Source of the DNA: an uncultured Pelagibacteraceae bacterium
GTDB taxonomy: Bacteria; Pseudomonadota; Alphaproteobacteria; Pelagibacterales; Pelagibacteraceae
Assembly (NCBI GenBank): GCA_902597515.1
Contig: CACJYB010000003.1
Span: 1-64,000 of the forward strand
Direction: 5' to 3'
DNA: 64,000 bases
Shown here: positions 972 to 61,089 of the stretch, piece by piece
How the letters are laid out: each line of letters begins with the position of its first letter
Numbering within the stretch: the stretch's first letter is position 1
Position numbers and translations under genes: made by a program
The notes under the pieces: model-generated
Seen by the model: the letters and a program-made list of their open reading frames with translations, nothing else
Databases searched by the model: none
Told to the model about the DNA's origin: nothing

Positions 972-2258
972 TTAACAAGACTTTAAAACAAATCCTGTTT
1001 CATTAACATATTCCTTGCATTTCTTTCTATCATCTTGTGTTATTTCTTTAGCAGGATTTAAACATTCTATTACCCTGCCAATAGAATCTCTACCTGTACA
1101 TGTAGTAGGTTGTGCCTTATAACCCAATGGTAAATATACTAAGCTGTAATAGTCGTAATGTCTATCTGTAGAATGGGCAGTTATAATTCTATTATTATCA
1201 AAATCAATAACTACTGTTTGACCAGCAAAACCATCTAACATCATTATAATTCTATCTTCTAATCCGATTGGGTCAAAGTGAAACTGACCACCATAACTTT
1301 GTGTAGCCTGAAAGTTACCTTTAAACTTACTATATTCATATTTGCCTTTATCAATTCTTGTTTCATACATTGTTTTTAAATACTTACCAACACAAGTATC
1401 ATTATTCCAATGATTCATTATCATGTTAGCAATTCTTACATAATCATATCTGTCTGCATAGAATGAATATCTTCCGTATTCACCAGATTTTCTGTTACCA
1501 GTTTTTTTAGCATATAAAGTCTTATGAAAATAAACTCTTTTAGCAACTTTAGCGTCTTCTACAAATATCTTATGTAATAGCTTGTTCCAGTCATCACCAG
1601 TTTTGTAAATAACATAGTTCATAATAACATTGGTTGTTAAAGCAGAGTAATTGTAATTAACACCAGGTGTTATACCTTCTTTGCCTTTAAAGTATTTCTT
1701 CATAACTTTTTTAATTGGAATAGTATTTGTGTTAGGACCCTTACCCATCCAAGCGTTATCTTTTCTATATTTGGCGTGACCAATATATGGATCATCACCT
1801 GCTGTCATATGTAATAAATCAATTAACTTTTGATTTTCGTATAAAGTACCTACAACAGTTGGGTAATCAATTCTTTCAAAAACTGTATGATTAATATAAC
1901 CACCACACATAGCATAACCTGTAACTAAACCTACCAAAGACTTACCTACAGAATGTGAAGGATATGGTCCTTTGTATTTACTTTTTCTATTTTGATCAAC
2001 TAAAATTTTGTTGTTTTCAAATAAGATATAAGAAACTAAACCAGTTTTTTTATCTGATATTTGTTGTTCAACTGTTTTTGATAATCTGCTAGTTTCTAAA
2101 TCAAATTCAAACTCATAGGCGTTATCATTTTTTTTATCACCTATTTTATATTTGTGGTGACAATTAAAACAATATTTTTCATTAGAATGATGAGCAAAAG
2201 CAAAGTCCATCATAATAAAGAAGATTGAGATACAAAAAAATGAAATTAATTTTTTCAA
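972..2258 (-). CDS. Exported serine hydrolase, beta-lactamase/6-aminohexanoate-dimer hydrolase-like
   Basis: Signal peptide; SxxK (HSVGKSLVG) and 'YNYSALTTN' motifs; an N-terminal CFNCH motif. Confidence 0.7.
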   Translation of the reverse strand: MKKLISFFCISIFFIMMDFAFAHHSNEKYCFNCHHKYKIGDKKNDNAYEFEFDLETSRLSKTVEQQISDKKTGLVSYILFENNKILVDQNRKSKYKGPYPSHSVGKSLVGLVTGYAMCGGYINHTVFERIDYPTVVGTLYENQKLIDLLHMTAGDDPYIGHAKYRKDNAWMGKGPNTNTIPIKKVMKKYFKGKEGITPGVNYNYSALTTNVIMNYVIYKTGDDWNKLLHKIFVEDAKVAKRVYFHKTLYAKKTGNRKSGEYGRYSFYADRYDYVRIANMIMNHWNNDTCVGKYLKTMYETRIDKGKYEYSKFKGNFQATQSYGGQFHFDPIGLEDRIIMMLDGFAGQTVVIDFDNNRIITAHSTDRHYDYYSLVYLPLGYKAQPTTCTGRDSIGRVIECLNPAKEITQDDRKKCKEYVNETGFVLKSC

Positions 2259-2261
2259 ACC

Positions 2262-2792
2262 TTACCTTTTTTTTCTTCTAAAGTCCCATGGCATTTCAAA
2301 TTTACCTTGCCAAAGGCCTTTTTTTTCATTTTTAGCATTAATTTCGTTTGATATATATTTTTTTGAGTATTTTCTATAAGCTACTGCATAACCGTTTGAA
2401 ACTAGCCAAGAATTCAGATTTAAATTTTTTTTATAACATTCTCCAATAAATCTTTTGTATCTATCAACATCCAAAATTTTACAAGTTATTACTTTGTTAT
2501 TTATTTTTTTTTGTAATTTTTGAGTTGAAATTTTTCCACATGGATAATCTTTAGTAAAAGTAAAAAAAATTATTGTTAGATATGGTTTTTTACACATTTG
2601 CTTGAATTCAGGTGCATCAATTCCATATAATCTTATCTTTTTTGAATTTATTTTTATTGTATCTCCATCAATAATTTGAGCATTTCCAGAAATTTCTTTA
2701 ATCTCTTCAGACCTAACATCGTTATATGTGAGAATAAAAAAAATCGAACAAATTATAATTAAAATTATCACTTTCCTTTTTGTAAAAAACAT
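2262..2792 (-). CDS. Thermonuclease (SNase) family protein, exported
   Basis: N-terminal hydrophobic segment, 'IIDGDTIKINSKKIRLYGIDAPE', 'GYAVAYRKYS', 'KGLWQGKFEMPWDFR'. Confidence 0.85.
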   Translation of the reverse strand: MFFTKRKVIILIIICSIFFILTYNDVRSEEIKEISGNAQIIDGDTIKINSKKIRLYGIDAPEFKQMCKKPYLTIIFFTFTKDYPCGKISTQKLQKKINNKVITCKILDVDRYKRFIGECYKKNLNLNSWLVSNGYAVAYRKYSKKYISNEINAKNEKKGLWQGKFEMPWDFRRKKR

Positions 2793-2804
2793 ATTTAAAA
2801 AATA

Positions 2805-4142
2805 TTAAATATTAGCTAATTTATGTTTAATATAATATTTGACATAAAAAAGTAACATCAATGATATCAACCATTGAAAGATAGCCCAAATATAAAAAAA
2901 AGTTTTAAAATCTGCATTTAAATACTTTGCAATGTAAAAGGATAAAACTGGTACTATAACATTTCTGGCAATATTATTAATCATAGCTTTTTCAGATTTT
3001 TTTAAAGCCATAAAAAATCCATTTGATAAGAAAAATATTGGATAAGCAGGTAAAATAAATGCTGAAATCTTAAGGTACATCGAGCCATGCATAATTACCT
3101 CTGGGTTTGAAGAAAAGAATTTAGGAACAATGTCAGCACTTATAAAAATAACTACACCAGCGATTAACATTATAAATAGACCGTATTTTATTGAGGTAAA
3201 ATAGGATTGCTCCACTCTATCGTAATATTTTGCACCAATATTTTGCGCTATTATAGAAATTATTGCTGTATTAATTCCTAATATTGGTAACAAAACTACT
3301 TGCTCAATTCTTGTAGCAGATCCATACCCTGCTACAGCATATTCACCAAATATCCCAACATATGTAAAAACAATTGTTGCAGCAATAGAATACCCTAATA
3401 TGGCAATTGTAATTGGCATTGATTGAAAAAAAATATTTTTTAAGAAGAAAAATTTAACTTTGAAATGGTCTAAAGTTATTTGTTTAATTCTTTGATTATT
3501 TAATATTTTTATCAAAATAACCAACAAAGATACAAATTGAGCAATTAAAGTTGCTATCCCAATACCAGTTATTCCTAATGGTGGTATAAATAAAAAACCA
3601 AATATAAAAATTGGATTTAAAATAATGTTTAAGAAAAAAGAAAATATTAGAACATTTCTGTAAGTTTTAGTATCTCCTTCTGCGTGTAAAAATGAATTTA
3701 ATGCTACTACTAAAATAAATAATATCGTACCTAAAAAAATTACATTTATATATTCGAGTCCAAGAATTGTTACTTCTTGAGAGGAATTCATTAATAAGAA
3801 TATCTTTTCACCAAAAGCAAATCCTAAAATAGATACAACTATCGAGATTATAATCGAATAAATGATTACATTTCCAAAATAACTTAAAACATTTTTTTCG
3901 TTTTTTTCTCCGATACTACTGCCAATCAATGATGTTCCTGCTACGGTAACTCCAATGGATGTCGCAATAATCAAAAAATATATCGGAAAAGACTTGCTCA
4001 AAGCTGATAAGGCTTCTGGCGATATTTTTCCTGCATAAAAAGTATCTACGATTGTATAAAGTGTTTGGAATAAGGTTCCTACACTTGCTGGTACAGCAAG
4101 TTTTCTTACTAACAACGAAACTTCATCTTTTAATAAATTCAT
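2805..4142 (-). CDS. MATE family efflux transporter
   Basis: 445 aa polytopic; 'LAVPASVGTLFQTLYTIVDTFYAG' MATE N-terminus. Confidence 0.85.
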   Translation of the reverse strand: MNLLKDEVSLLVRKLAVPASVGTLFQTLYTIVDTFYAGKISPEALSALSKSFPIYFLIIATSIGVTVAGTSLIGSSIGEKNEKNVLSYFGNVIIYSIIISIVVSILGFAFGEKIFLLMNSSQEVTILGLEYINVIFLGTILFILVVALNSFLHAEGDTKTYRNVLIFSFFLNIILNPIFIFGFLFIPPLGITGIGIATLIAQFVSLLVILIKILNNQRIKQITLDHFKVKFFFLKNIFFQSMPITIAILGYSIAATIVFTYVGIFGEYAVAGYGSATRIEQVVLLPILGINTAIISIIAQNIGAKYYDRVEQSYFTSIKYGLFIMLIAGVVIFISADIVPKFFSSNPEVIMHGSMYLKISAFILPAYPIFFLSNGFFMALKKSEKAMINNIARNVIVPVLSFYIAKYLNADFKTFFYIWAIFQWLISLMLLFYVKYYIKHKLANI

Positions 4143-12317: not shown

Positions 12318-14900
12318 ATGAATCTAGTCATAGTTGAAAGCCCTGCTAAAGCGAAAACAATTAATAAATATTTAGGTGATAACTATACCGTTTTAGCTAG
12401 CTATGGTCATATTAGAGATCTTCCCTCAAAAAATGGATCCGTTGATCCTGATCAAAATTTTAAAATGGAATGGGAAGTTGATAGCTTTTCAAAAAAATAT
12501 TTAAAAGAAATCACTGATGCTGCGAAAGATTCTTCAAAAATAATTCTTGCTACTGACCCAGATCGTGAGGGTGAAGCAATAGCATGGCATGTAAAAGAAT
12601 ATTTAGATGAAAAAAAACTTTTAAAGGATAAAGAAATTGAACGTGTGGTATTTAATGAAATAACAAAAAAAGCCGTCACACATGGTATTGAAAATCCAAG
12701 ACAGATAGAGCCTTTATTAGTCGATGCTTATATGGCTAGAAGAGCATTAGATTACTTGGTTGGATTTAATATATCACCAATACTTTGGACTAAACTTCCT
12801 GGTTCAAAATCTGCCGGTAGAGTTCAATCTGTTGCACTGAAATTGATCACTGAAAGAGAGCATGAAATTGAATTATTTAAGCCTGAAGAATTTTGGACTT
12901 TAAGTATTAATTTTCAAGATAAAAACAATAGCAAGATTACAGCAAGTATTTCTCAACTTGATGGAGAAAAAATTGAAAAATTCTCATTTAAAAATAAAGA
13001 GAAAATTGAAAAGGCAATTTCTAATATTAAGACCAAAAAATTTAACATAACTGATATTTCCTCAAAAGTTGTTAGTAGAAATCCCTCAGGACCATTTACT
13101 ACATCAACACTTCAGCAAGTTGCTTCTAGTAGATTGGGTTTTGGTGCATCAAGAACAATGCAAATAGCACAAAAACTTTATCAAGGAATAGAAATTGAGG
13201 GAGATACAGTTGGGTTAATTACTTATATGAGAACGGATGGAACTAATTTATCAGCTGATGCTGTCTCTGATTTTAGAAATTTTATTAAAAAAGAATATGG
13301 TAACGAATACTTGCCAGAAAATCCAAATAATTACTCAGGAAAAAAAGCAAAAAATGCTCAGGAAGCTCATGAAGCAATAAGACCAACTGATATTAATAGA
13401 AATCCAGATTCTGTTAAAAAGTATTTAAGTTCAGATCAGCAAAAATTATATTCTTTAATTTGGTCTAGAGCTCTATCGTCTCAAATGGAGACAGCAAAAT
13501 TTGATAGAAATACAATAACGATTGAATCTGAAGACGGTAAAACTATATGTAAATCAAGCGGATCAGTTTTGAAATTTGATGGATTTTTAAAAGTTTATTC
13601 AAATCAAAACAAAGATGATGATGAGCAAATTTTACCTGAGATGTCAAAAGGACCAATTAATATAGAAGCTCTTATTGATGAACAACATTTTACTCAACCT
13701 CCCCCACGCTACTCTGAGGCAAGTTTGGTTAAAAAATTAGAAGAGTTAGGAATTGGTAGACCTTCAACTTATGCAAGTATAATTTCAACAATAGCAAATA
13801 GAGGTTATGCAGAAATAGTTAATAAAAGATTTTTCCCAACTGACAGAGGTAAATTAATTTCTGCATTTTTAGAAAAACTATTTTCAAAGTATGTGGATTA
13901 TAACTTCACAGCTGGACTAGAGGATCAGCTAGATGAAATAACTTCTGGAAAAGAAAGTTGGTTAAAAGTCTTAGAAATGTTTTGGAAAGATTTTAATAGC
14001 AATGTTTCAGAGGTAAAAGAAAAAAGAACCAGAGAAGTTTTAGATCTTTTAAATGAAAGTTTGGGAGCATTGATATTTGACACTGATAAGGAAGGAAAGA
14101 TAGTTAGAAAATGCCAATTATGTGACACAGGTTCCCTTAGTTTAAAAAATAGTTTTAGAGGAGGTGCGTTTATTGGATGTTCAAATTATCCTGAATGTAA
14201 ATTCACAAGACCATTATCGAAAGCTAAAGCAGCTGCTCAGTCACAATTAGCAGAACCAAAATTTCTAGGAAAACACGAAAATGGAAATGATATTTTTTTA
14301 AAAAATGGCAGATTTGGTCCTTATCTTCAGTATGAGAAAGTTCTTGAGGAAAATATTGAAGAAGAAAAGCCTAAAAAAAGAAAAAAAACCAAAAAAAAGA
14401 AACCTGAAGTAAATGAACTATTGAAAAATGTATCTATACCAAAAGGAATCGAATTAGAAAGTATTGATTTAGATAAAGCAAAATTTTTATGTTCGCTTCC
14501 TAAATCATTAGGCATTAATACAGAAAATCAAAAAGAAATAACTTTGAACACTGGTAGATTTGGACCATATTTAAAATGTGAAAATAAATCAGCTAGAATA
14601 GAAAATGTCGAAGAAATTTTTTCTATAGGATTAAATAGAGCAATTACACTTATAGCGGAGGCAAAACCTGGAAGAATGTCTTCTTCAATTATAAAAGATT
14701 TAGGGGAGCATCCTGAGGATAAAAAGCCAGTCCGAATCATGAAAGGTCAATATGGACCATACATTAAATACAAATCTCTTAATGCAACAATCCCAGAGGA
14801 AAAAGACCCAGTAGAAGTAACAATGGAGGAGGCTCTTATACTAATTGAGAAAAGAAGAGAATACGATAAAAATAAAAAAAATAAAAAAAAGAAAAAATGA
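12318..14900 (+). CDS. topA: DNA topoisomerase I
   Basis: 'LVIVESPAKAKTINKYLG', 'TDPDREGEAIAWH', 'GLITYMRTDGTNLS', C-terminal zinc ribbon. Confidence 0.95.
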   Translation: MNLVIVESPAKAKTINKYLGDNYTVLASYGHIRDLPSKNGSVDPDQNFKMEWEVDSFSKKYLKEITDAAKDSSKIILATDPDREGEAIAWHVKEYLDEKKLLKDKEIERVVFNEITKKAVTHGIENPRQIEPLLVDAYMARRALDYLVGFNISPILWTKLPGSKSAGRVQSVALKLITEREHEIELFKPEEFWTLSINFQDKNNSKITASISQLDGEKIEKFSFKNKEKIEKAISNIKTKKFNITDISSKVVSRNPSGPFTTSTLQQVASSRLGFGASRTMQIAQKLYQGIEIEGDTVGLITYMRTDGTNLSADAVSDFRNFIKKEYGNEYLPENPNNYSGKKAKNAQEAHEAIRPTDINRNPDSVKKYLSSDQQKLYSLIWSRALSSQMETAKFDRNTITIESEDGKTICKSSGSVLKFDGFLKVYSNQNKDDDEQILPEMSKGPINIEALIDEQHFTQPPPRYSEASLVKKLEELGIGRPSTYASIISTIANRGYAEIVNKRFFPTDRGKLISAFLEKLFSKYVDYNFTAGLEDQLDEITSGKESWLKVLEMFWKDFNSNVSEVKEKRTREVLDLLNESLGALIFDTDKEGKIVRKCQLCDTGSLSLKNSFRGGAFIGCSNYPECKFTRPLSKAKAAAQSQLAEPKFLGKHENGNDIFLKNGRFGPYLQYEKVLEENIEEEKPKKRKKTKKKKPEVNELLKNVSIPKGIELESIDLDKAKFLCSLPKSLGINTENQKEITLNTGRFGPYLKCENKSARIENVEEIFSIGLNRAITLIAEAKPGRMSSSIIKDLGEHPEDKKPVRIMKGQYGPYIKYKSLNATIPEEKDPVEVTMEEALILIEKRREYDKNKKNKKKKK

Positions 14901-51098: not shown

Positions 51099-51174
51099 GC
51101 CCTTGTAGCTCAGCTGGTAGAGCAATTGATTTGTAATCAATAGGTCCGCGGTTCGAATCCGTGCGGGGGCACCA
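51099..51174 (+). tRNA. tRNA-Thr(TGT), integration target
   Basis: Cloverleaf; anticodon stem-loop ATTGA-TTTGTAA-TCAAT; encoded CCA; its 3' 54 nt recur downstream. Confidence 0.95.
51121..51174 (+). repeat. att-like direct repeat copy A (inside tRNA-Thr)
   Basis: 54 bp identical to 52198-52251; last 50 bp match 59848-59897 with one mismatch. Confidence 0.9.
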
Positions 51175-51237
51175 TCACTCAATAAATTCAACACTTATTA
51201 TTTTTACTAAAATAGTTTTTAACTAAATTTTATAATT

Positions 51238-51259
51238 GATTGTGCCAGGATTGTGCCAA
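51238..51259. repeat. Two tandem 11-bp repeats GATTGTGCCA(G/A), left end of element 1
   Basis: GATTGTGCCAG GATTGTGCCAA. Confidence 0.7.
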
Positions 51260-51269
51260 GATCAAGTGG

Positions 51270-51902
51270 TCATTTACAATATGCTTTTCCAACTTTTGAT
51301 TTATTGGTGTTAAAAACTGTAATTCCAAAATATGTTGAACCTAATCCGTATCTAGATCTACCTCCACACATATATTCAGCAACTTGATTCCAATCCATTC
51401 CAAAAACGTAATCAACAACCATAAAAAAACTTGAGTCACTAACAAACTTTGCACTTAAAACTGCATCAATTGATAAAGCTGCTTCTGTAAAAGCTGACTT
51501 ACCATTTAATGGTTCATCATTTTTTTTTGTAAGAGCTTTAGTTGTAGGTTTTGAAATAGATTCTCTAGCATCATTAAGAGTGTAGTGCCAAGATTCTAAT
51601 GTACCGTTTCCTTGTTTGTTGCACATTATAATTCCACAATCTACAGGTTGAGAAACACCCCTGAATACATAGAATAAACTTTTATCAGCTCCCCATATAA
51701 TTTCTTTGTTTATGTCAGAATAAAATTCTGAGCCAGCACCATAAACAAATGGATCTGAGTAAGGCATCATCATTAGAAATAATTCATTCAGTTCACTTTT
51801 TGTCATATCTTGTTTAAGTTTATCTGTTGAAACAACAGATGAAGTTGTAGAACAACCCACTAACATTAAACCCAGAACCACGATCCCTAAAAGTTTTTTC
51901 AT
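51270..51902 (-). CDS. Putative lipoprotein, unknown function
   Basis: Start at internal Met: MKKLLGIVVLGLMLVGCSTT with LVGC lipobox. Confidence 0.65.
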   Translation of the reverse strand: MKKLLGIVVLGLMLVGCSTTSSVVSTDKLKQDMTKSELNELFLMMMPYSDPFVYGAGSEFYSDINKEIIWGADKSLFYVFRGVSQPVDCGIIMCNKQGNGTLESWHYTLNDARESISKPTTKALTKKNDEPLNGKSAFTEAALSIDAVLSAKFVSDSSFFMVVDYVFGMDWNQVAEYMCGGRSRYGLGSTYFGITVFNTNKSKVGKAYCK

Positions 51903-51904
51903 AA

Positions 51905-52084
51905 TCACATTTCCGAAAACCAAAAATAAAATCCTATAACTACCATACCAAGACCTACAAAACCTAACTCATATTCGTAAGGTGTAAACATACCTACTAT
52001 GCTAATAATAAATCCAATACACATTGGACCTAAAATTTTACTTTTAAATACTGCTTTCCAACCGTCTTTTTCTGAATTGCTCAT
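51905..52084 (-). CDS. Small membrane protein (59 aa)
   Basis: My translation: MSNSEKDGWKAVFKSKILGPMCIGFIISIVGMFTPYEYELGFVGLGMVVIGFYFWFSEM; below the ORF track cutoff. Confidence 0.45.
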   Translation of the reverse strand: MSNSEKDGWKAVFKSKILGPMCIGFIISIVGMFTPYEYELGFVGLGMVVIGFYFWFSEM

Positions 52085-52123
52085 TTTTAATATTCAGTAA
52101 ATTATTTCACTTAAAGACATTAT

Positions 52124-52146
52124 CAGTGTGCCAGCATTGTGACCAG
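52124..52146. repeat. Degenerate copy of the GTGCCA tandem repeat, right end of element 1
   Basis: CAGTGTGCCAG CATTGTGACCAG, resembling 51238-51259. Confidence 0.5.
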
Positions 52147-52197
52147 ATTAAAAAAATTCTTCGACAAATGTTACAAACAAATGTTTATTTAAACTTT

Positions 52198-52251
52198 AGC
52201 AATTGATTTGTAATCAATAGGTCCGCGGTTCGAATCCGTGCGGGGGCACCA
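52198..52251 (+). repeat. att-like repeat copy B (tRNA-Thr 3' fragment)
   Basis: 54/54 identical to 51121-51174; no 5' half, so not a functional tRNA. Confidence 0.92.
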
Positions 52252-52353
52252 CTAAAATCTCATTTATTTTCAACAAACTTAAATTTTACTTAAATTTTTT
52301 TTAAAATAAAAATCGTTTAATAAGACTATAGAAAGGAAGGAGATAGAACTCAC

Positions 52354-52374
52354 TGAAGTGAATTTGAAGTGAAT
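52354..52374. repeat. 21-bp repeat TGAAGTGAATTTGAAGTGAAT (two 11-bp-period units), left end of element 2
   Basis: Identical to 59752-59772. Confidence 0.8.
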
Positions 52375-52407
52375 CCATTTTTACTGTCGATAGCTTTCAC
52401 CGTATGT

Positions 52408-52746
52408 TTAATCAAAATATTGATATCCCCAAGCTTGCTTCATTCTAACTAAAAACCTAACCTCTTTATCTTTTAATTCGCCGTCCGACAAAGCAACTCT
52501 TTTAACAAATTCTTTTGCTTGTAATTTTGAATTATCTTTAGTGATATTTCCTAAATAAAAATCTTGAGCTACATCTAAATCACCTGAAAATTTTTCATTT
52601 ATTTCATCAGTCGCATTATGAACATTAAAATCAACTTTTATTTCTTTTGCAATTTTTAATATTTCACTAGTCTCATCCTTACCTAGGCCATGATCTGCAA
52701 GAGCCATACAAACACATAAATTTAATGAATTAATCTTATCCGACAT
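52408..52746 (-). CDS. TerB-like domain protein
   Basis: 'CMALADHGLGKDETSEILKIAKEI...RVALSDGELKDKEVRFLVRM' resembles the TerB helical repeat. Confidence 0.5.
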   Translation of the reverse strand: MSDKINSLNLCVCMALADHGLGKDETSEILKIAKEIKVDFNVHNATDEINEKFSGDLDVAQDFYLGNITKDNSKLQAKEFVKRVALSDGELKDKEVRFLVRMKQAWGYQYFD

Positions 52747-53311
52747 ATTTAAATCCCTTTTTTATACACTCACTTATTTTATCAGTATAAAACTCACCAT
52801 TGCTTATATCAATATGAACATTGTCATAAAGTTTATCAAATGGAAAAAAAAATAGTCTCTTCCCTTTTCTATTTATATTGCATTTTATCATTGGATAATT
52901 TTTATCTAATTTAATATTTCTGTGTTGAATATTTAATGCTTTTGCAACTTTTTTAGTATCATCATGAAACTTAGCAGTTGTTATAAAAACACCTGTTGGA
53001 ATTTTATGTTTTGGATTTTGATTTATATAATGCAAAATTGAACCTGCTAATTGCATTAAATGTTTTGGATAAATTGTTTTTTTATTTTTAACTGACCAGT
53101 TTTTTGCTTGGATTATTAAAACTTGTTTTTTCTTTGTACAAATTAAATCTCTTCCTAAATCACTTTTACCCTTTAAAATACCGTAGGGCTCAACCCTCCA
53201 ACCTTTTGTTTCGTAAAGATATCTTATTTGTCTTTCATAGAAATGACCAATACCGAGGTTATCGTGTGATTTTTTTTTATATGAATTATATTTTCTTTGT
53301 AAATCGTTCAT
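52736..53311 (-). CDS. Mrr-like PD-(D/E)xK restriction endonuclease-family protein
   Basis: 'GHFYERQIRYLYETKGWRVE...GRDLICTKKKQVLIIQAKNW' (D...QAK core). Confidence 0.7.
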   Translation of the reverse strand: MNDLQRKYNSYKKKSHDNLGIGHFYERQIRYLYETKGWRVEPYGILKGKSDLGRDLICTKKKQVLIIQAKNWSVKNKKTIYPKHLMQLAGSILHYINQNPKHKIPTGVFITTAKFHDDTKKVAKALNIQHRNIKLDKNYPMIKCNINRKGKRLFFFPFDKLYDNVHIDISNGEFYTDKISECIKKGFKYVG

Positions 53312-53355
53312 AAAAAAATATAGCACTCCTTATAAAAAGTAATTAGATCAAAATT

Positions 53356-53739
53356 CTATTTAAAATAGTTTCTTCTTATCCATTTATAATAAAAATAAAT
53401 ATATATTAAAAAAATTGGTAATAATATTGCTGTTAAAATCTGATTAATTCCTCCGAAGGCGAAGGCTATTCCTTCTACTCTTAATTCGGCATCTATACAT
53501 TCTGATAATTTTTCTTTCTCAGTTCCTAATTTTCTTCCACCAAAATTATTATTTTTACACCACTCTGTATAATAACCAATTTCATCATTGTTAGTGTAAA
53601 AAGGTGAATTTACATAATCTGGATTTTGAAGAGTGGTTTTGCCCAAAAAGTCACCAACCGTAAACCACGTTGAACATGATGTGGGTAGCAATAATAGAAT
53701 AAACAATATGGATAAAATAATTGATTTAAATAATTTCAT
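53356..53739 (-). CDS. Putative lipoprotein/membrane protein, unknown
   Basis: MKLFKSIILSILFILLLLPTSCSTW lipoprotein-like signal and C-terminal TM. Confidence 0.45.
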   Translation of the reverse strand: MKLFKSIILSILFILLLLPTSCSTWFTVGDFLGKTTLQNPDYVNSPFYTNNDEIGYYTEWCKNNNFGGRKLGTEKEKLSECIDAELRVEGIAFAFGGINQILTAILLPIFLIYIYFYYKWIRRNYFK

Positions 53740-53746
53740 AAATTTT

Positions 53747-53935
53747 TCATTTGAATGAGTCAATTATATAAAACATTACTAATCTTATTATTATGGGAGC
53801 AACTATTCCGGCTATGATTCCAAACCATAACAAACCACTACCATTAAAACCACCAATTGTTATTAAAGTTCCAATAGCTATCCAAATCCAAAAAGCTACA
53901 TTCACAATTGCCTTTAAACCATTTCCAATATTCAT
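53747..53935 (-). CDS. Small membrane protein (62 aa)
   Basis: Two hydrophobic segments. Confidence 0.45.
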   Translation of the reverse strand: MNIGNGLKAIVNVAFWIWIAIGTLITIGGFNGSGLLWFGIIAGIVAPIIIRLVMFYIIDSFK

Positions 53936-53963
53936 AATAATTTTTTAAGCTATTATATAAGTT

Positions 53964-54518
53964 TTAAACATCAAGCTCACCAGGTTTTGTAACTACAGGA
54001 TAGCCGTCAAAAATTTTTCTTAATTTTTCCTTGTATGCGTCCATATCTATACCTTTATAATGTTTCATAAATAAACTAGCCTCTAACTCGCTATAAACTT
54101 GCAATCTTCTTATAAAATATTCGAAAAAATTTATCTCTCGTTCCCAATACATTTCTTTAGATCTCTCTAAATCATCATATAAATTTGAATTCATTTTTAA
54201 TGCTGGAGGAAACCATTCATTTGCAAAATAATCATCTTCATTAAAAAGCTCCGTAAATTCCCAAATAATTTTTCTATTACCAAAACCTAAAAATTTAACA
54301 AAATTTTGTATAATACCTCCTCTATCTTCATGAGCAAAAGGTACTGTTGGATGAGCTCCGGTTCGATCCGTAAGATCTAAAAATATACCCTCAAAATAGA
54401 ATAACTTTCTCCTAATTAGCTCTGGATCATCTCTAGTAATATTTTTTTCAAGAGCATTAATCAGTTCTTTTGCAAACTCATAATCTTGATTTACTGCAAA
54501 TTTGTTAACATCAAACAT
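53964..54518 (-). CDS. Hypothetical cytoplasmic protein
   Basis: 184 aa, no recognised motif; directly follows the YHYH gene. Confidence 0.55.
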   Translation of the reverse strand: MFDVNKFAVNQDYEFAKELINALEKNITRDDPELIRRKLFYFEGIFLDLTDRTGAHPTVPFAHEDRGGIIQNFVKFLGFGNRKIIWEFTELFNEDDYFANEWFPPALKMNSNLYDDLERSKEMYWEREINFFEYFIRRLQVYSELEASLFMKHYKGIDMDAYKEKLRKIFDGYPVVTKPGELDV

Positions 54519-54522
54519 ATTA

Positions 54523-54810
54523 TCAAAAACAACTTAGTTTAACTTCACCATTATTTTCTTTAAACTTTAATGATTTATTATTAGTTCTTGATGGATCAAA
54601 TTCATAATATTGATCACCAATAACAATTTTGCAATTAAATTTTTTTAATTGTTGTACACTTTTACTTCTATGACAATGGTAGCCTCCAGTTTTTCGATTA
54701 TTGTGGCAACCTTGTTGATTTAAACCGCCTGAATGTGAAAAAGATATTTCAGCAAAAATCATAGATACAAATAATAAAAGTAAAAATCTCATTCTAAATA
54801 GTTTTTTCAT
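54523..54810 (-). CDS. Exported YHYH-type Cys/His-rich protein
   Basis: Signal peptide, 'HSGGLNQQGCHNNRKTGGYHCHR'; overlaps the SNase gene. Confidence 0.65.
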   Translation of the reverse strand: MKKLFRMRFLLLLFVSMIFAEISFSHSGGLNQQGCHNNRKTGGYHCHRSKSVQQLKKFNCKIVIGDQYYEFDPSRTNNKSLKFKENNGEVKLSCF

Positions 54811-55352
54811 TATTTAATTTCCATCCATATTTCTATATCTTTAAGAGTGCTTTTATCTTTTCTAAATTTTCTAATTTTAGCTCTCCATTCCCAAGGATAT
54901 AAAAATTTCATTGTCCATAAACCAAGGTTATTTTGTTTTGCATATTGTTCATCTAAATCAAATTTTTCTTTAGAATATCTCTTAAAATCAAAAGCATATC
55001 CATTTTTCACAAGATACCTGGATAAACTCTCATTGTTCACAAAACATTCGGCTAAAGTTCTCCCATATATATCTTTTTGCTCTTCTCTAATGCAATTGAC
55101 CTCGTTATTAGAAATTTTTTCTATAAGCTTATTTTTTGATAATTCTCCACAATATACTTTTTGACTATTTAGATAACAAAGCTGTTTGTATTTTTGATAA
55201 TAAGTTGTCTCAGGTGTGTCTATGCCAGAAAATCTTATTGTCTCTCCATTTATTTTGATTGTATCACCGTCTAAGATCTTAACATCTTGTGAAAATGAAT
55301 AATTTGTAAAAAAAATAAAGAGAATTGCTAAAAACAAAAAATTCTTCTTCAT
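54810..55352 (-). CDS. Exported thermonuclease (SNase) family protein
   Basis: Signal peptide; 'ILDGDTIKINGETIRFSGIDTPET', 'GYAFDFKRYSKEKFD', 'GLWTMKFLYPWEWR'. Confidence 0.88.
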   Translation of the reverse strand: MKKNFLFLAILFIFFTNYSFSQDVKILDGDTIKINGETIRFSGIDTPETTYYQKYKQLCYLNSQKVYCGELSKNKLIEKISNNEVNCIREEQKDIYGRTLAECFVNNESLSRYLVKNGYAFDFKRYSKEKFDLDEQYAKQNNLGLWTMKFLYPWEWRAKIRKFRKDKSTLKDIEIWMEIK

Positions 55353-55630
55353 TTAATAATTAAATCCTTCAAATTTGTTAAAGGCCAATATGTATAAATA
55401 ATATATGAAGCTATTGAGATTGTTGTGATTGATATCATGTAAATAATAAATCTCTTTTTTATATTTTTTCTTGAAGAAAAATAATTATAAACAGATAAAT
55501 CACTTTTATTAGTTACTATTTTCTCTAAATCAGAGACTGAATGTTTTATTTTTTTTTTTCTTAATAAGTTGCTCAAAACAGCTATTCTGAGAGCTAATAT
55601 CTTTTCATTTAAAGTTTCTTTATTCGTCAT
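55349..55630 (-). CDS. Small protein with C-terminal TM, unknown
   Basis: 93 aa; 4-bp overlaps with both neighbours. Confidence 0.6.
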   Translation of the reverse strand: MTNKETLNEKILALRIAVLSNLLRKKKIKHSVSDLEKIVTNKSDLSVYNYFSSRKNIKKRFIIYMISITTISIASYIIYTYWPLTNLKDLIIK

Positions 55631-56469
55631 TTATTTTTTCTATAGTATTGGTCAACATTATCATCTTGAAATATGTAATAAGTGAATATGTTTTCAACTG
55701 TATTATGAAGTAATCTTTTATATTCTGATTTATTATCATCTAATTCATCAAAAATTCTAACCTCATGTCTACAATCACGCCTCAAAGTGAGGTTTGGATG
55801 CTTACTATCAGTTTCTTTTTGGCTGATGACTAAAAGTTGATTAAAACTTTCAAGAAACTTTTTTGAAGAAATAATATTCATTGTATTATTTTTATAGTCA
55901 TCATACGAACTAAGAATACTTCTGTTAATTGGAAGTAAATTATATTGATCTTTATAAACGTTTTTAAAGTCTGGAATAACCGCTAGTTTATCTGTTCCTA
56001 AAAATATAATATTAAAAATTCTATCAGCTTTTTCATAATCTGGATTTTCGGGCCATCCTTTTGGCCAACAAGGAGGATTTCTTCCTAATCCTTCAGCTTT
56101 TGCAATAGCAGCTTTAGTATTTAATGGAAGATCTTCAGGATTTTCTTTACCTGTTTTTTCAGCAAATTTTTCAAGCATTTCTTTTAATTCTTTATTCTCC
56201 TCTTTTAATTCTATTAATTCCTTTTTAGCTTCTTTTAATCTGTCTTGAATATCAGGAGTCGTCGTCTTGTCTGGAAAATTTGGATATAACATCTTGTATT
56301 CCTCTGGAGTGCTAGTTCCTGTTACTTCAGTCCATTTAACTAATTCTTCATTTTTTTTATTTGTGATAAGCCATAAAAGTAATAATAAAATGAAAAGAAT
56401 TAACAAAATTAATTCAGTAAGAGTAAAACTAAATACTTGTCCTCTTCTAACTTTATGAAGATTTAACAT
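55627..56469 (-). CDS. Single-TM coiled-coil protein, MotB/ZorB-like topology
   Basis: 'FTLTELILLILFILLLLLWLIT' with an acidic residue at the TM N-terminus, coiled coil, then a 'PPCWPKGWPENPDYEKADRIFNIIF' domain. Confidence 0.5.
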   Translation of the reverse strand: MLNLHKVRRGQVFSFTLTELILLILFILLLLLWLITNKKNEELVKWTEVTGTSTPEEYKMLYPNFPDKTTTPDIQDRLKEAKKELIELKEENKELKEMLEKFAEKTGKENPEDLPLNTKAAIAKAEGLGRNPPCWPKGWPENPDYEKADRIFNIIFLGTDKLAVIPDFKNVYKDQYNLLPINRSILSSYDDYKNNTMNIISSKKFLESFNQLLVISQKETDSKHPNLTLRRDCRHEVRIFDELDDNKSEYKRLLHNTVENIFTYYIFQDDNVDQYYRKNK

Positions 56470-57440
56470 TATTTTCGTTTCAGTTTAGAAACTATTAAGT
56501 CTGACATACTTGACATATTGTTGTACATTTTTTGCAAAGCTTCTCTAGACTCTTCTAATGATTTGAAAATTTCTTTTTTATTTGATGTGATTTCTTTAAT
56601 ATCTGTTGAAACAATATTTTTATAAGCTTCCATTGATTTAGTCATATTGTCAAAAACATCTTGTAAATTTGATATCTCTCTTGCTGGGTTATTTTGTGTT
56701 AATGCAGAATTAAGTGTATTTAAATTTTCATTAAAGCTTTCTGTGGTCTTATTGAGATTTTCTAAAGTTTTATCTAAATCGCTTGTTTTTTTAACCAAAG
56801 TATCTGAAGCAAGATTTATATTTGAGATTACTTTTTTTGAGGATTTAGCAAATTCCTCTGAATTTTCTTTTAGAAAAGTAGTTAATTCAATACTATTTTT
56901 TTCTAAAGACTCGCTAGTTTTTCTACTCATTTCATCTATTAAGTTTTTAAAAGTACTTGTACTCATATCAAGCTGCGTTTTAAGACTTAGAGCTGTATCA
57001 GATAGCATTCTTTCAGACATTTCATTTATGTCCTCTTGTGATGCAGCAAATTGAGACATAAAAACTCTGACAAATATACCAACAACAGTAGTCGTTAGAG
57101 CTATTGCAAACTTTGGAATAATGTCTTCAGCGGTTGGGTCGTCGGATAAATCATAAAGAGCTAAAATTAATGCTGCCAGTGTTAAAATAAAACCCAAATA
57201 ATATACACTGTCACCTAGCTGATCTAGATTTAAAACATTTCTTCCCTTGTTGAATATAAAAATTGCATAAAACAAAACCACAAGGCCAGGTAAAGCCATT
57301 TGTAATAATAATGAATCTTGAAGCCCTCTTACAATTACTATTGATGCAACACCAATTACAGTAAAGATGAAAAAAAAATTTCTTAAATTTCCAGCACTGG
57401 TTCTTCTTAATTTTACAGTTGGTACTTCATTCTTAGCCAT
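56469..57440 (-). CDS. MotA/TolQ/ExbB-like (ZorA-like) protein with long coiled-coil tail
   Basis: Four TM segments, TM4 'FAIALTTTVVGIFVRVFMSQ', then about 180 aa of heptad-rich tail. Confidence 0.65.
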   Translation of the reverse strand: MAKNEVPTVKLRRTSAGNLRNFFFIFTVIGVASIVIVRGLQDSLLLQMALPGLVVLFYAIFIFNKGRNVLNLDQLGDSVYYLGFILTLAALILALYDLSDDPTAEDIIPKFAIALTTTVVGIFVRVFMSQFAASQEDINEMSERMLSDTALSLKTQLDMSTSTFKNLIDEMSRKTSESLEKNSIELTTFLKENSEEFAKSSKKVISNINLASDTLVKKTSDLDKTLENLNKTTESFNENLNTLNSALTQNNPAREISNLQDVFDNMTKSMEAYKNIVSTDIKEITSNKKEIFKSLEESREALQKMYNNMSSMSDLIVSKLKRK

Positions 57441-58273
57441 TATGAACCTATCCTAAAAAATTTAATATTATTATTATGTGCATCTATTTCTTGAAAATAT
57501 TTATTCCAAAAGCTCTCAACGTTATCACATTGTCCATTTTCAAATCGTTTATAACAGTATAGCTCCACATCAACATTATCTCTCAAACTAGAATAAACAT
57601 TTTTAAAATATCTAGTATCAGTAAATTTTTTAATATTTATATCTGATGTATTATAAAAAGAGTATTCACTAGTATGATGCATAAAATCTGAAAATATAAC
57701 AAGTTTATGAATATATTTTGGATTTGAATGTTTAAAACTATTAATGCTAACAACATTAATCATTTCAAAAATAGGTGATGTTGGACTGGTTGATCTTTCC
57801 ATTATTTTATCAATTACTGGATTTATTATCTGACTAAAATTTTTTTCCCAATCTTTCATATATTTTTTTACAGTTAAGGTGATTCCTGATTTTTCAAAAT
57901 AACTTAAATTTCTTTCATCTCCTGGATTACAAACAGAAACCTCAGGTTTTATATTTTGTCCCTCAGGGTCATTTTTAATCACATAAATAGATAGACGACT
58001 ATATTGAGGGACATCTATCTTAATTTTATCTAAAAAATTTCTAGCATCAACTTCAACAATAGGTTTATCTTTTACAGTGTCTGTTTGATCAAAAAGAACA
58101 ACATGTTCAGAATAAGGACCTTTAACTGGGCAGCCTTTTGAATTTAATTCTACAGAAGTTATGCTTTTATAAACAAAATAAAATATCACGAGTGCAACGA
58201 TAAAAATTAACACTCCAAAAATTAAGTAACCTTTATTATCTAGAGATTTTTTTTCATCTTCAAAACTTGGCAT
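57440..58273 (-). CDS. Membrane-anchored vWA-like protein
   Basis: N-terminal TM; 'HVVLFDQTDTV' (DxTxT, MIDAS-like); 'KLVIFSDFMHHT'. Confidence 0.55.
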   Translation of the reverse strand: MPSFEDEKKSLDNKGYLIFGVLIFIVALVIFYFVYKSITSVELNSKGCPVKGPYSEHVVLFDQTDTVKDKPIVEVDARNFLDKIKIDVPQYSRLSIYVIKNDPEGQNIKPEVSVCNPGDERNLSYFEKSGITLTVKKYMKDWEKNFSQIINPVIDKIMERSTSPTSPIFEMINVVSINSFKHSNPKYIHKLVIFSDFMHHTSEYSFYNTSDINIKKFTDTRYFKNVYSSLRDNVDVELYCYKRFENGQCDNVESFWNKYFQEIDAHNNNIKFFRIGS

Positions 58274-58275
58274 GA

Positions 58276-59709
58276 TTATCTTTCTAGCTCTTCTGAATGA
58301 AAATCAACAAGGTCCTGGACTTTTTTAGTTGCATCTTCATACTTAGACTCAATATGTTTAACAATTTCTTTTTGATCTTTTTCAATAGTTGAAATTTTAT
58401 TTTTCAATTTAACAACCATTTTAGTTTGATCATTTATATCAACATTTAATTTTCCAGTTTCCTCAAAAATAAATGGTTTTTCGAAATACTTAGGTGGTTT
58501 ATCTGTTCTTGCCCTCTCATTTTCATTTCTATAGTGCATTATAGCTTGTTTACACTCACTATTAATACGTTTGATTTGTATCTCGTATTTCTCTCCAAGT
58601 GTCGAAAATAAATCTATCATTTGATTTATTGATTTATATTTAATTCTCATTTGCTTGTATAATTCTCTTATTTCTCGAATTAAATGATCTTTATGATCTT
58701 TACACTCCATTAAATATTTATAATGTGTGTCTGCATATCTTTTCATCGTATTGTCTTTAAATCTCTCAGCAGCACCAAAACCTGGATAAGGGTCGTCTGA
58801 TTTATAACCACTGCCAACTGCAGAAACTCCAAAAACAATACCAACAACTAATAATGCAAAAGAAATAAAATCTTTTATTTCAAAAGGACTGGCTAGTATG
58901 AATTGTATAACTTCAATAAATGCTATTTCATTATTTACTACAACTAGGTCTCTATAGTGAGCTACAAAAAAATTAACACATAGAAACCACATTAAAATAA
59001 TTAATAAGCTTAAAAATCCAAAAAATTTTACAGTTCCATTAAAATGATTTTTGAAGGGCAAAACAAATCTGCCATATAAAAAACCTATCCAAACATTAAA
59101 AAAGGAAATAATTATAGCAATACCAAATCCTCCCATTATACCTGATCTTGTTACTTCTTTAAGAAATAAGCCATTAATAATACATTCAGCTAGGAACAGG
59201 GCGCTAACAGTAGCATAATAATAAACTAATGAAGGCGGAAAATTAGCTCTTCTATTTAAAGAATGTTTTTTTCTAAACTCATTATATCGATTAGTAGCAT
59301 CTTTTATCTTTTCATTATCAAAATATTTAAAATTTTTAGACTCTTTCTTTTTTTCATTAAACCAATTAGTAGAGTCTTTTTTATAATTATCAATTTTAGC
59401 ATCGACAGTCATTATTCCACTATTGTCGATATTTTGTTTTACGTTATTTGAATATTCAGTTCCAAATTTTTTGCTATTCTGCATTATGCTGTAATAATGG
59501 CCTTTAATTTTTTCTTCAGCTGCACTTAAATTTTTTCTATCAGATCTTGGTAGATTTTTTTCCCCATCTTTTTTAGCTTCCTCGTCTATTTTAAATTTTT
59601 TAATAACTTCATTTAGCTTCTCTAATTTTGGAAAAGTAAATGGTTCTTGAAGTTCAACTTCAGTAGAAAAAAGATTTTTAAATCCTGACCAAATATTCTG
59701 AAATACCAT
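58276..59709 (-). CDS. 4-TM membrane protein with flanking coiled coils, unknown family
   Basis: 477 aa; four TM segments, 'DDPYPGFG' motif; first gene of the operon. Confidence 0.65.
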   Translation of the reverse strand: MVFQNIWSGFKNLFSTEVELQEPFTFPKLEKLNEVIKKFKIDEEAKKDGEKNLPRSDRKNLSAAEEKIKGHYYSIMQNSKKFGTEYSNNVKQNIDNSGIMTVDAKIDNYKKDSTNWFNEKKKESKNFKYFDNEKIKDATNRYNEFRKKHSLNRRANFPPSLVYYYATVSALFLAECIINGLFLKEVTRSGIMGGFGIAIIISFFNVWIGFLYGRFVLPFKNHFNGTVKFFGFLSLLIILMWFLCVNFFVAHYRDLVVVNNEIAFIEVIQFILASPFEIKDFISFALLVVGIVFGVSAVGSGYKSDDPYPGFGAAERFKDNTMKRYADTHYKYLMECKDHKDHLIREIRELYKQMRIKYKSINQMIDLFSTLGEKYEIQIKRINSECKQAIMHYRNENERARTDKPPKYFEKPFIFEETGKLNVDINDQTKMVVKLKNKISTIEKDQKEIVKHIESKYEDATKKVQDLVDFHSEELER

Positions 59710-59751
59710 ATATAATAATATGATTTACTGAGATAAATTTGAAGAAAAATG

Positions 59752-59772
59752 TGAAGTGAATTTGAAGTGAAT
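59752..59772. repeat. 21-bp repeat TGAAGTGAATTTGAAGTGAAT, right end of element 2
   Basis: Identical to 52354-52374. Confidence 0.8.
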
Positions 59773-59847
59773 TTTAAAAGCCTGAATAGACAGGACGCAA
59801 TTAGTTAAGTATTATCAATGTTAATGAAAGAAAAAATAATTAAGTTT

Positions 59848-59897
59848 ATTGATTTGTAATCAATAGGTCCGCGGTTCGAATCCGTGCCGGGGCACCA
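59848..59897 (+). repeat. att-like repeat copy C (tRNA-Thr 3' fragment)
   Basis: 49/50 match to 51125-51174; G->C at 59888; similarity continues about 40 bp past CCA. Confidence 0.9.
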
Positions 59898-60011
59898 TCA
59901 CTCAATAAAATCAACATTAATAATTTTTGCTAAATCTGAAAAGTTTTAAATATTGTGTCGAGGATCTATCGAACTAGTGTCGTTATAAAGTAGTTATTTA
60001 ATTTATATGTC

Positions 60012-60137
60012 TTAAAATCCACCTCTCCAATTATCTTTATCTTCAAACTGTTCTTTTTCTTTTTTGGATGTAGGTCTAAATAAAAAATAAACTGTTAGAG
60101 CGACAGTTAATAAAATTATAATATTCTCAAGTGTCAT
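60012..60137 (-). CDS. Small TM protein (41 aa)
   Basis: My translation: MTLENIIILLTVALTVYFLFRPTSKKEKEQFEDKDNWRGGF. Confidence 0.4.
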   Translation of the reverse strand: MTLENIIILLTVALTVYFLFRPTSKKEKEQFEDKDNWRGGF

Positions 60138-60177
60138 AAACCAAAAACCATGATATCTAAAAGTTTTTTCGTTTGAT

Positions 60178-60315
60178 CTACCAAGCTGTTAATTTCCAGC
60201 ATTCGTTGGCATCTTCAATACGAACGTAACAACCAAGAAAAGACATAATTTTAAATGCACAAAAACCTCCAACTAAAATAATGACTACGAGCATTACTGG
60301 ATTTATTTTTTTCAC
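60178..60315 (-). CDS. Small TM protein (45 aa, GTG start)
   Basis: My translation: (V/M)KKINPVMLVVIILVGGFCAFKIMSFLGCYVRIEDANECWKLTAW. Confidence 0.35.
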   Translation of the reverse strand: MKKINPVMLVVIILVGGFCAFKIMSFLGCYVRIEDANECWKLTAW

Positions 60316-60318
60316 TTA

Positions 60319-61089
60319 CTAACTAGTCTCTCTTCTTATTTGTTCAATTTTAATCTTTTTTTGTAGACTTCTATTTTTATCATAAAGAAGATTAAACTTT
60401 ATTTTGTTATTAGTTTTTACTGTAATTGATTTGGCATTTCTTACTTCTAAATTATCAGCAACTGCACTAATAGGTCTCTTAGTTGGGTTTAAATTAGTTA
60501 TAACTATTTTTGTTTTATCATTAACTATTCTACCCTTCCATCTTCTTGGTCTAAATGCACTTATTGGTGATATTGATAATTTTTTTGAATGAAGACTTAA
60601 GATGGGCCCATGGACTGAAAGATTATAGGCTGTGCTTCCTGCAGGCGTTGATACTAATACACCATCTGAAACTAATTTTTTAATTATTTGTCTTGAACCT
60701 TGCTTAATTGACAATGAAGCAGCTTGTCTACTTTGTCTAAGAACAGACACTTCATTAATTGCTATAGATTTTCTAATTTGATTATTTCTAGTTTTAACTA
60801 CCATTTCTAGAGGAGAAATTGTAACCAAGTTTGATTTTGATAAATTTTTAATAATATCTTTAGATGAAAATTTATTCATAAGAAATCCATAATTTCCAGA
60901 ATTGATCCCATAAAAATGTTTGTTAGAATTTTTATTCTTTTTAAGCGTTTGAAGCATAAAGCCATCACCACCAATAACAATAATCAGATTTTCTTTTTTA
61001 AAATTATTAGACTTAATTTTTTTTATTAATAAATTTTTAAACTTAAAAGATTTCTTATTTTTATCTGAAATAATGTGAAGTTTGCTCAT
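60319..61089 (-). CDS. nadK: NAD kinase
   Basis: 'LIIVIGGDGFMLQTL', 'GINSGNYGFLMN', 'VSTPAGSTAYNLSVHGPIL'. Confidence 0.92.
   Translation of the reverse strand: MSKLHIISDKNKKSFKFKNLLIKKIKSNNFKKENLIIVIGGDGFMLQTLKKNKNSNKHFYGINSGNYGFLMNKFSSKDIIKNLSKSNLVTISPLEMVVKTRNNQIRKSIAINEVSVLRQSRQAASLSIKQGSRQIIKKLVSDGVLVSTPAGSTAYNLSVHGPILSLHSKKLSISPISAFRPRRWKGRIVNDKTKIVITNLNPTKRPISAVADNLEVRNAKSITVKTNNKIKFNLLYDKNRSLQKKIKIEQIRRETS

Follow-up and report, generated by a model that had tools for sequence, protein, structure and literature searches.

The locus described here raises a question of function: what does a stator-type membrane motor do on a mobile element of a SAR11 bacterium, and with which partners? 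It lies in a 64,000-nucleotide stretch of an uncultured Pelagibacteraceae bacterium (contig CACJYB010000003.1, positions 1 to 64,000, referred to as the window), which belongs to a draft genome of 0.9 Mb in 56 contigs and in which a sequence-only reading had proposed a Zorya-like system at 55349-59709. We found an operon that encodes a pair of motor subunits related to those of Zorya, kept together with two further membrane proteins in alphaproteobacterial plasmids and genomes and accompanied by a nuclease in most copies. With a probability of about 0.55, we interpret it as a mobile, Zorya-related envelope sensor or motor that is driven by the proton-motive force, is coupled to a nuclease in the periplasm and probably acts against viruses or plasmids.

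The five minus-strand open reading frames (ORFs) on which that reading was based were confirmed at their coordinates, with a 2-bp gap between ORF1 and ORF2; ORF2 and ORF3 share 1 bp (57440), as do ORF3 and ORF4 (56469), and ORF4 and ORF5 share 4 bp (55627-55630). They encode a coiled-coil protein with four transmembrane (TM) segments, termed TM4 (59709 to 58276, 477 amino acids [aa]), a vWA-like protein (58273 to 57440, 277 aa), a ZorA/MotA-like stator subunit (57440 to 56469, 323 aa), a MotB/ZorB-like subunit (56469 to 55627, 280 aa) and a 93-aa protein with a single TM segment near its C-terminus (55630 to 55349), for which L008 and L034 hold possible counterparts. The end proposed for the operon did not stand, as two downstream genes, which provide the best clue to its function, had been missed: a gene for a staphylococcal-type nuclease (SNase; 54810-55352, minus strand; 180 aa with a hydrophobic leader) starts inside the end of ORF5 with a 4-bp overlap, and is followed, after a 1-bp overlap, by a gene for an exported YHYH-domain protein (54523-54810, minus strand; 95 aa; NCBIfam YHYH_alt, 1.7e-11). 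In L008, a divergent copy in a congeneric genome, a single protein (13145-13720) has a YHYH-like segment ahead of its SNase domain.

The MotA-like ORF3 displays four hydrophobic segments (at about residues 22-40, 44-62, 78-96 and 111-129) followed by a long helical tail, and matches Pfam MotA_ExbB with 24.2 bits (cut-off 22.9), as had been anticipated. It has no cytoplasmic domain between TM2 and TM3, and combines the ZorA-type TM core and long tail with the lack of this MotA-type domain. Thr87 and Thr118 are invariant in the family (21/21) and align with the threonines of the third and fourth TM segments of TolQ and ZorA. Phylogenetically, the family forms one clade (support 0.98), sister to ZorA (0.90) and apart from TolQ/ExbB and flagellar MotA, in a tree of 191 columns in which long branches, a poor ZorA fragment (L123) and the common lack of the TM2-TM3 domain could inflate the sisterhood with ZorA. 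The PADLOC ZorA matches to these proteins are weak and fall mostly within the tail.

The MotB-like ORF4 carries a single N-terminal TM segment with a glutamate, Glu19, again in line with the earlier proposal, followed by a coiled coil and a C-terminal domain. The membrane acid lies in a T-x-[AT]-E motif in 24 of 24 homologues and is Glu instead of the Asp of MotB and ZorB; at this segment, three reference loci have a ZorB with the sequence SVSDLMAGLMM. Most homologues end in an OmpA domain (Pfam OmpA is matched at 0.1 by 13 of 19), the family profile finds its best PDB match in the Zorya II ZorB 8VVI (8.5e-15), which together with 8VVN belongs to the Zorya study (PMC11890865), and PADLOC ZorB2 matches are found at 1.4e-27 (L048), 3.9e-27 (L068) and 5.4e-25 (L029). 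In the window (where the motif reads PPCW...CRH), L008, L034, L035 and L036, a P-[PS]-C-W...C-R-[HF] domain replaces OmpA. Taken with the MotA_ExbB match and the tree, the kinship of this MotA-like and MotB-like pair with the Zorya stator is well supported.

Could the operon then be an ordinary Zorya system with its cytoplasmic effectors encoded elsewhere or missed? A MotA-like subunit sister to ZorA and ZorB-like periplasmic domains would fit; however, no PADLOC match to ZorC, ZorD or ZorE was found in ten window proteins or in the scanned module proteins of other loci (no genome-wide search was made), Glu replaces Asp throughout, and the Zorya literature consulted mentions neither of the two additional conserved genes, those for TM4 and the vWA-like protein. 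We consider this explanation highly unlikely, and the accessory set (TM4, the vWA-like protein and a nuclease) indeed differs from that of Zorya, as first suggested.

The two additional proteins are less readily classified. For the vWA-like ORF2, a TM anchor at residues 16-34 was recovered, as were the motifs DxTD and SD; D62, D65, S195 and D196 are invariant in the family, Cys48 and Cys115 are conserved, as are the DxTD, SP and SD positions, and the region that follows the TM segment is predicted to form an extracytoplasmic alpha/beta domain. The vWA fold itself, part of the original proposal, is unproven, with no match of the protein to Pfam vWA or to the PDB. TM4 has about four TM segments (about residues 160-304) between long coiled-coil arms and a conserved DPYPG motif past the last of them; it matches neither a Pfam model above cut-off nor a PADLOC family.

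Profile searches recovered the core order TM4, vWA-like, MotA-like, MotB-like in 22 groups from alphaproteobacterial plasmids and genomes, counted by hand after merging near-identical or same-genus copies (the window, L008, L027, L028, L029, L030, L031, L032, L033, L034, L035, L036, L038, L039, L042, L044, L046, L048, L049, L066, L068 and L070; a contig end cuts the TM4 gene in L042 and the MotB gene in L037). When 72,556 plasmids were searched with the MotA-like, vWA-like and TM4 queries, each returned 24 records of identical organism make-up (Rhizobium 12, Paracoccus 6, Sinorhizobium 3, Microvirga 2, Tistrella 1). The core genes stand side by side in every plasmid locus read, and TM4 is present in all module loci. 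The recurrence of this gene order in 22 groups and the agreement of the three plasmid queries show that the ORF set is not a chance arrangement. The sequence-only reading had staked itself on a likeness of the 323-aa ORF to MotA/ExbB and on homologues being neighbours in other genomes, and both were found.

The distribution is patchy. The vWA-like profile matches 13 of 386 genomes of the class, strong matches of a phylum-wide TM4 search are confined to the same class, and among the Pelagibacterales relatives searched only G000 and G082 carry the module, while L008 keeps all four core proteins at 23-34% identity. No match was obtained with the MotA-like query in viral contigs or with the TM4 query in phages. 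Two weak TM4 matches in G583 and G629, outside the class, appear to reflect chance similarity between coiled coils, and a match in G146 is an ordinary flagellar-type motA; these were set aside.

The nuclease is the second recurrent feature. The window SNase matches Pfam PF00565 at 4.2e-16 and contains the DGDT and R-F-S-G-I-D-T-P-E motifs; it also matches the NCBIfam EcnA model (6.1e-15), which we take to describe a plasmid nuclease. An SNase is found within 3 kb of the module or fused to it in 15 of the 22 groups, against a background in carriers of ~0.55 SNase genes per Mb (35 in 14 genomes), i.e. a chance of ~0.6% per locus; the corresponding binomial probability of 5e-29 ignores phylogeny and is to be trusted for its direction only. 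In L038, L042, L044 and L068 the SNase is fused to the C-terminus of MotB, its periplasmic end, and in L048 a GmrSD_C/HNH domain takes its place. The groups added by the TM4-only search (L066/L067, L068) carry an SNase too. Where the SNase is a separate gene, its position varies (upstream or downstream of the module, or on the opposite strand) and, given this variety together with the fusions, the nuclease was probably acquired repeatedly. The linkage of motor and nuclease across groups, as read from gene order and fusions, is well supported. The window nuclease is predicted to be extracytoplasmic, a placement suggested by the hydrophobic leader of the SNase, the position of the fused nucleases behind an OmpA domain, the single N-terminal TM segments of the MotB-like and vWA-like proteins, and conserved cysteines, which are present in both the vWA-like and the PPCW domains.

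An exported nuclease in a bacterium of nutrient-poor water could also serve to scavenge, with a PMF-driven machine capturing DNA outside the cell and degrading it as a source of phosphorus or nucleosides; that the window holds a second SNase gene (2262-2792; G082 likewise has two) would suit this explanation. Yet the module is patchy and mobile, no transporter or phosphatase is conserved with it, five groups have no nuclease, the carriers include clinical Paracoccus yeei and nodule bacteria, and scavenging needs no peptidoglycan-binding stator of the Zorya type. We regard it as improbable.

Mobility is most directly seen in the window. The operon had been proposed to sit on a tRNA-anchored element, and the boundaries can now be drawn more sharply: the 3' 50 bp (51125-51174), the attachment site, of a tRNA-Thr gene (tgt; 51099-51174, plus strand) recur exactly at 52202-52251 and with one mismatch at 59848-59897 (both plus strand), i.e. 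on both sides of the operon block, which is therefore an integrated cassette. In the related genome G012 the site is empty, with a single copy of the tRNA-Thr 3' end and a gap of 118 bp between the genes for NAD kinase and a TrmH-type methyltransferase. The repeats and the single copy at the empty site together identify the operon as cargo of an element at 52252-59897, which an additional small element (51175-52251) adjoins. No integrase was recognised among the element ORFs by inspection and a partial Pfam scan. In L004, two copies of the attachment site flank a 5.7-kb unit made of the operon and one further ORF only, and in three further SAR11 assemblies (Pelagibacteraceae single-cell records) ORF3 is 98-99% alike while the flanks differ. 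The operon's element also carries a TerB-domain protein (52408-52746, minus strand; Pfam TerB, 1.3e-5) and, outside the conserved core, a protein with an Mrr-type restriction endonuclease domain (52736-53326, minus strand; Pfam Mrr_cat, 2.7e-11).

The NAD kinase-TrmH junction of Pelagibacter (window 51175-60319 and loci L102-L114) is a cargo hotspot: of 18 genomes, 5 have a gap of 118-125 bp and 13 one of 2.2-9.3 kb. Cargo at this site includes lipopolysaccharide-type genes, DUF6994 and a DNA methylase gene with an 879-aa ORF after it (possibly type III restriction-modification, L106), among others, and several islands hold additional copies of the tRNA-Thr 3' end. The L105 island contains a cassette (1188-4052) encoding a TerB-domain protein (1.2e-9), a 172-aa TM protein and a multi-TM protein of 619 aa that has no match in Pfam, whose outline is like that of TM4 and which the TM4 profile does not match. 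A near-identical signal peptide (MKKLLGIVVLGLL...) begins unrelated small ORFs in the islands, often near a copy of the attachment site (L005:4983, L006:11409, L103:2000, L104:4559, L105:5425, L109:1500, L110:7560), and the start of a window ORF at 51270-51923 is related to it; one possibility is a common leader to which varied cargo becomes joined.

A patchy distribution, carriage by plasmids and a site at a cargo hotspot are traits of defence systems, and some copies lie near Cas10, AbiEii, SNIPE/PD-Lambda-1 or Mrr; the nuclease-free L036 is near Cas10 (3.7e-98) and the nuclease-free L039 beside AbiEii (4.4e-73). From our analysis, an anti-phage or anti-plasmid function of the operon appears likely. 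A narrower version would restrict it to plasmids and free DNA: the motor would detect the structures of mating pairs or of DNA uptake, and the nuclease in the periplasm would destroy single- or double-stranded DNA arriving by conjugation or transformation, shielding the resident plasmid from competitors. The predicted periplasmic location, the EcnA likeness of the window SNase and the 24 plasmid records, of which 11 are typed as conjugative and 4 as mobilizable, are consistent with such a barrier, but the module is also chromosomal and found in SAR11 cassettes, and for those host plasmids that are themselves conjugative a general block to conjugation would be costly. We hold a barrier limited to plasmids and free DNA to be unlikely.

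For the broader interpretation, a Zorya-related motor coupled to a periplasmic nuclease, we infer the following assembly, topology, trigger and role of the nuclease in defence. The MotA-like (A) and MotB-like (B) subunits would form a 5:2 proton motor in the inner membrane, as in related families, with Glu19 of B facing Thr87 and Thr118 of A. B would reach into the periplasm and end there in a ZorB-type, peptidoglycan-binding OmpA domain (most homologues) or in the PPCW domain (window); the vWA-like protein would lie outside the membrane, and the coiled coils of TM4 and the A-tails would extend into the cytoplasm. A phage or conjugation machine disturbing the wall may act as trigger; this wall sensing is carried over from Zorya, which depends on D24 of ZorB and on binding to peptidoglycan (PMC11890865). 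Proton flow through A/B would then alter the complex so that the nuclease (a separate SNase in the window, a domain of B in other genomes) is released or positioned, and incoming DNA would be cut in the periplasm during entry. Cutting there would spare the host, because the periplasm contains no host chromosome.

Several observations weigh against this interpretation. No nuclease lies near the module in 5 of the 22 groups (L029, L032, L033, L036, L039) and the SNase is a decayed remnant in L034 and L051, so the nuclease would be dispensable or act in trans; stand-alone secreted SNase genes also occur in carrier genomes. The defence-gene neighbours were listed by proximity, without comparison to a null, and the subcellular locations are predictions. 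The window MotB has no OmpA domain recognisable in Pfam and PADLOC scans. Comparison of the vWA-like family with 18 vWA_2 proteins by hhalign gave a probability of 0.6%, and AlphaFold2 models, built from alignments of the window and three near-identical sequences only, were poor for both the vWA-like protein (mean predicted local distance difference test [pLDDT] 41) and the MotA-like protein (pLDDT 45). Lastly, TM4 and vWA-like pairs exist without a motor (L041, L043/L047, L045, L069). Downstream of the L041 pair, ORFs were noted that by eye resemble a caspase-type protease and formylglycine-type enzymes.

The motor-less pairs would be easier to understand if the module were Tol-Pal-like or gliding-like machinery for envelope maintenance or the cell surface, with the vWA-like protein as force transducer, a role proposed for vWA proteins paired with TolQ-like motors (PMC12204202), and the nuclease as a passenger. 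A passenger is hard to reconcile with 15 of 22 groups having the nuclease fused or close by and with five B-nuclease fusions, and a patchy distribution is ill-suited to maintenance; moreover, the MotA-like protein groups with ZorA and not with TolQ/ExbB, and G000 has its own TolQ-type protein elsewhere (C5:36762). Envelope machinery seems quite unlikely to us, and we retain the Zorya-related motor with its nuclease.

A bolder proposal, that of a new class of immunity in which a wall-sensing, proton-powered rotary motor switches on a periplasmic nuclease that destroys foreign DNA on its way to the cytoplasm, with location as the sole mark of non-self, is tentative, and we are inclined to doubt it. 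If the module is defensive, periplasmic cutting of DNA would need neither a sequence nor a modification check, an argument made until now for SNIPE, on the membrane's inner face. The B-nuclease fusions (four SNase groups, five with HNH) would make the coupling of motor and nuclease directly testable in one polypeptide. For SAR11, among the most abundant bacteria of the ocean, the system, if real, would provide an envelope-based defence; no paper in the literature searched contains the terms Pelagibacter, Zorya and defense system together.

How does the module compare with known systems? Flagellar and Tol/Exb stators (MotAB, PomAB, TolQR, ExbBD) share with it a four-TM A subunit with conserved Thr in the third and fourth TM segments and a one-TM B subunit with a membrane acid, whereas the module has Glu for Asp, other gene partners and its own branch in the tree; unlike its A subunit, flagellar-type stators have a large TM2-TM3 domain. 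The closest published idea is that of the vWA force transducers, either TolA-like with an SHLS motif or TPH-vWA proteins replacing TolR (PMC12204202), in which a TM-anchored vWA-type protein is also encoded beside a 5:2 motor; the module differs because it has a separate MotB-like subunit and a linked nuclease, and also by its 4-TM protein and by a vWA fold that is unproven. SNIPE (PD-Lambda-1), the gene of which lies near one module copy (L031), is a single cytoplasm-facing GIY-YIG protein without motor that separates self from non-self by location (PMC13190303); both would be envelope nucleases possibly telling foreign DNA by place and not by sequence, but the nuclease of the module is predicted to be periplasmic and a motor is present. 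Zorya types I-III combine a ZorA-ZorB 5:2 motor with ZorC/D or ZorE. The module resembles them in an A subunit that lacks the TM2-TM3 cytoplasmic domain and ends in a long helical tail, in the OmpA domain of many MotB homologues, which matches ZorB models and 8VVI, in a nuclease partner and in its mobile, patchy occurrence. It differs by its Glu and, in the window copy, the PPCW domain, by the constant company of TM4 and the vWA-like protein, and by a nuclease (SNase or HNH) that is predicted to be extracytoplasmic; no ZorC/D/E was seen among the proteins scanned. Overall, the tRNA-Thr element carries an operon for a Zorya-related envelope motor in which Glu stands where Asp would be expected, together with two more conserved partner proteins and a nuclease predicted to lie outside the cytoplasm.

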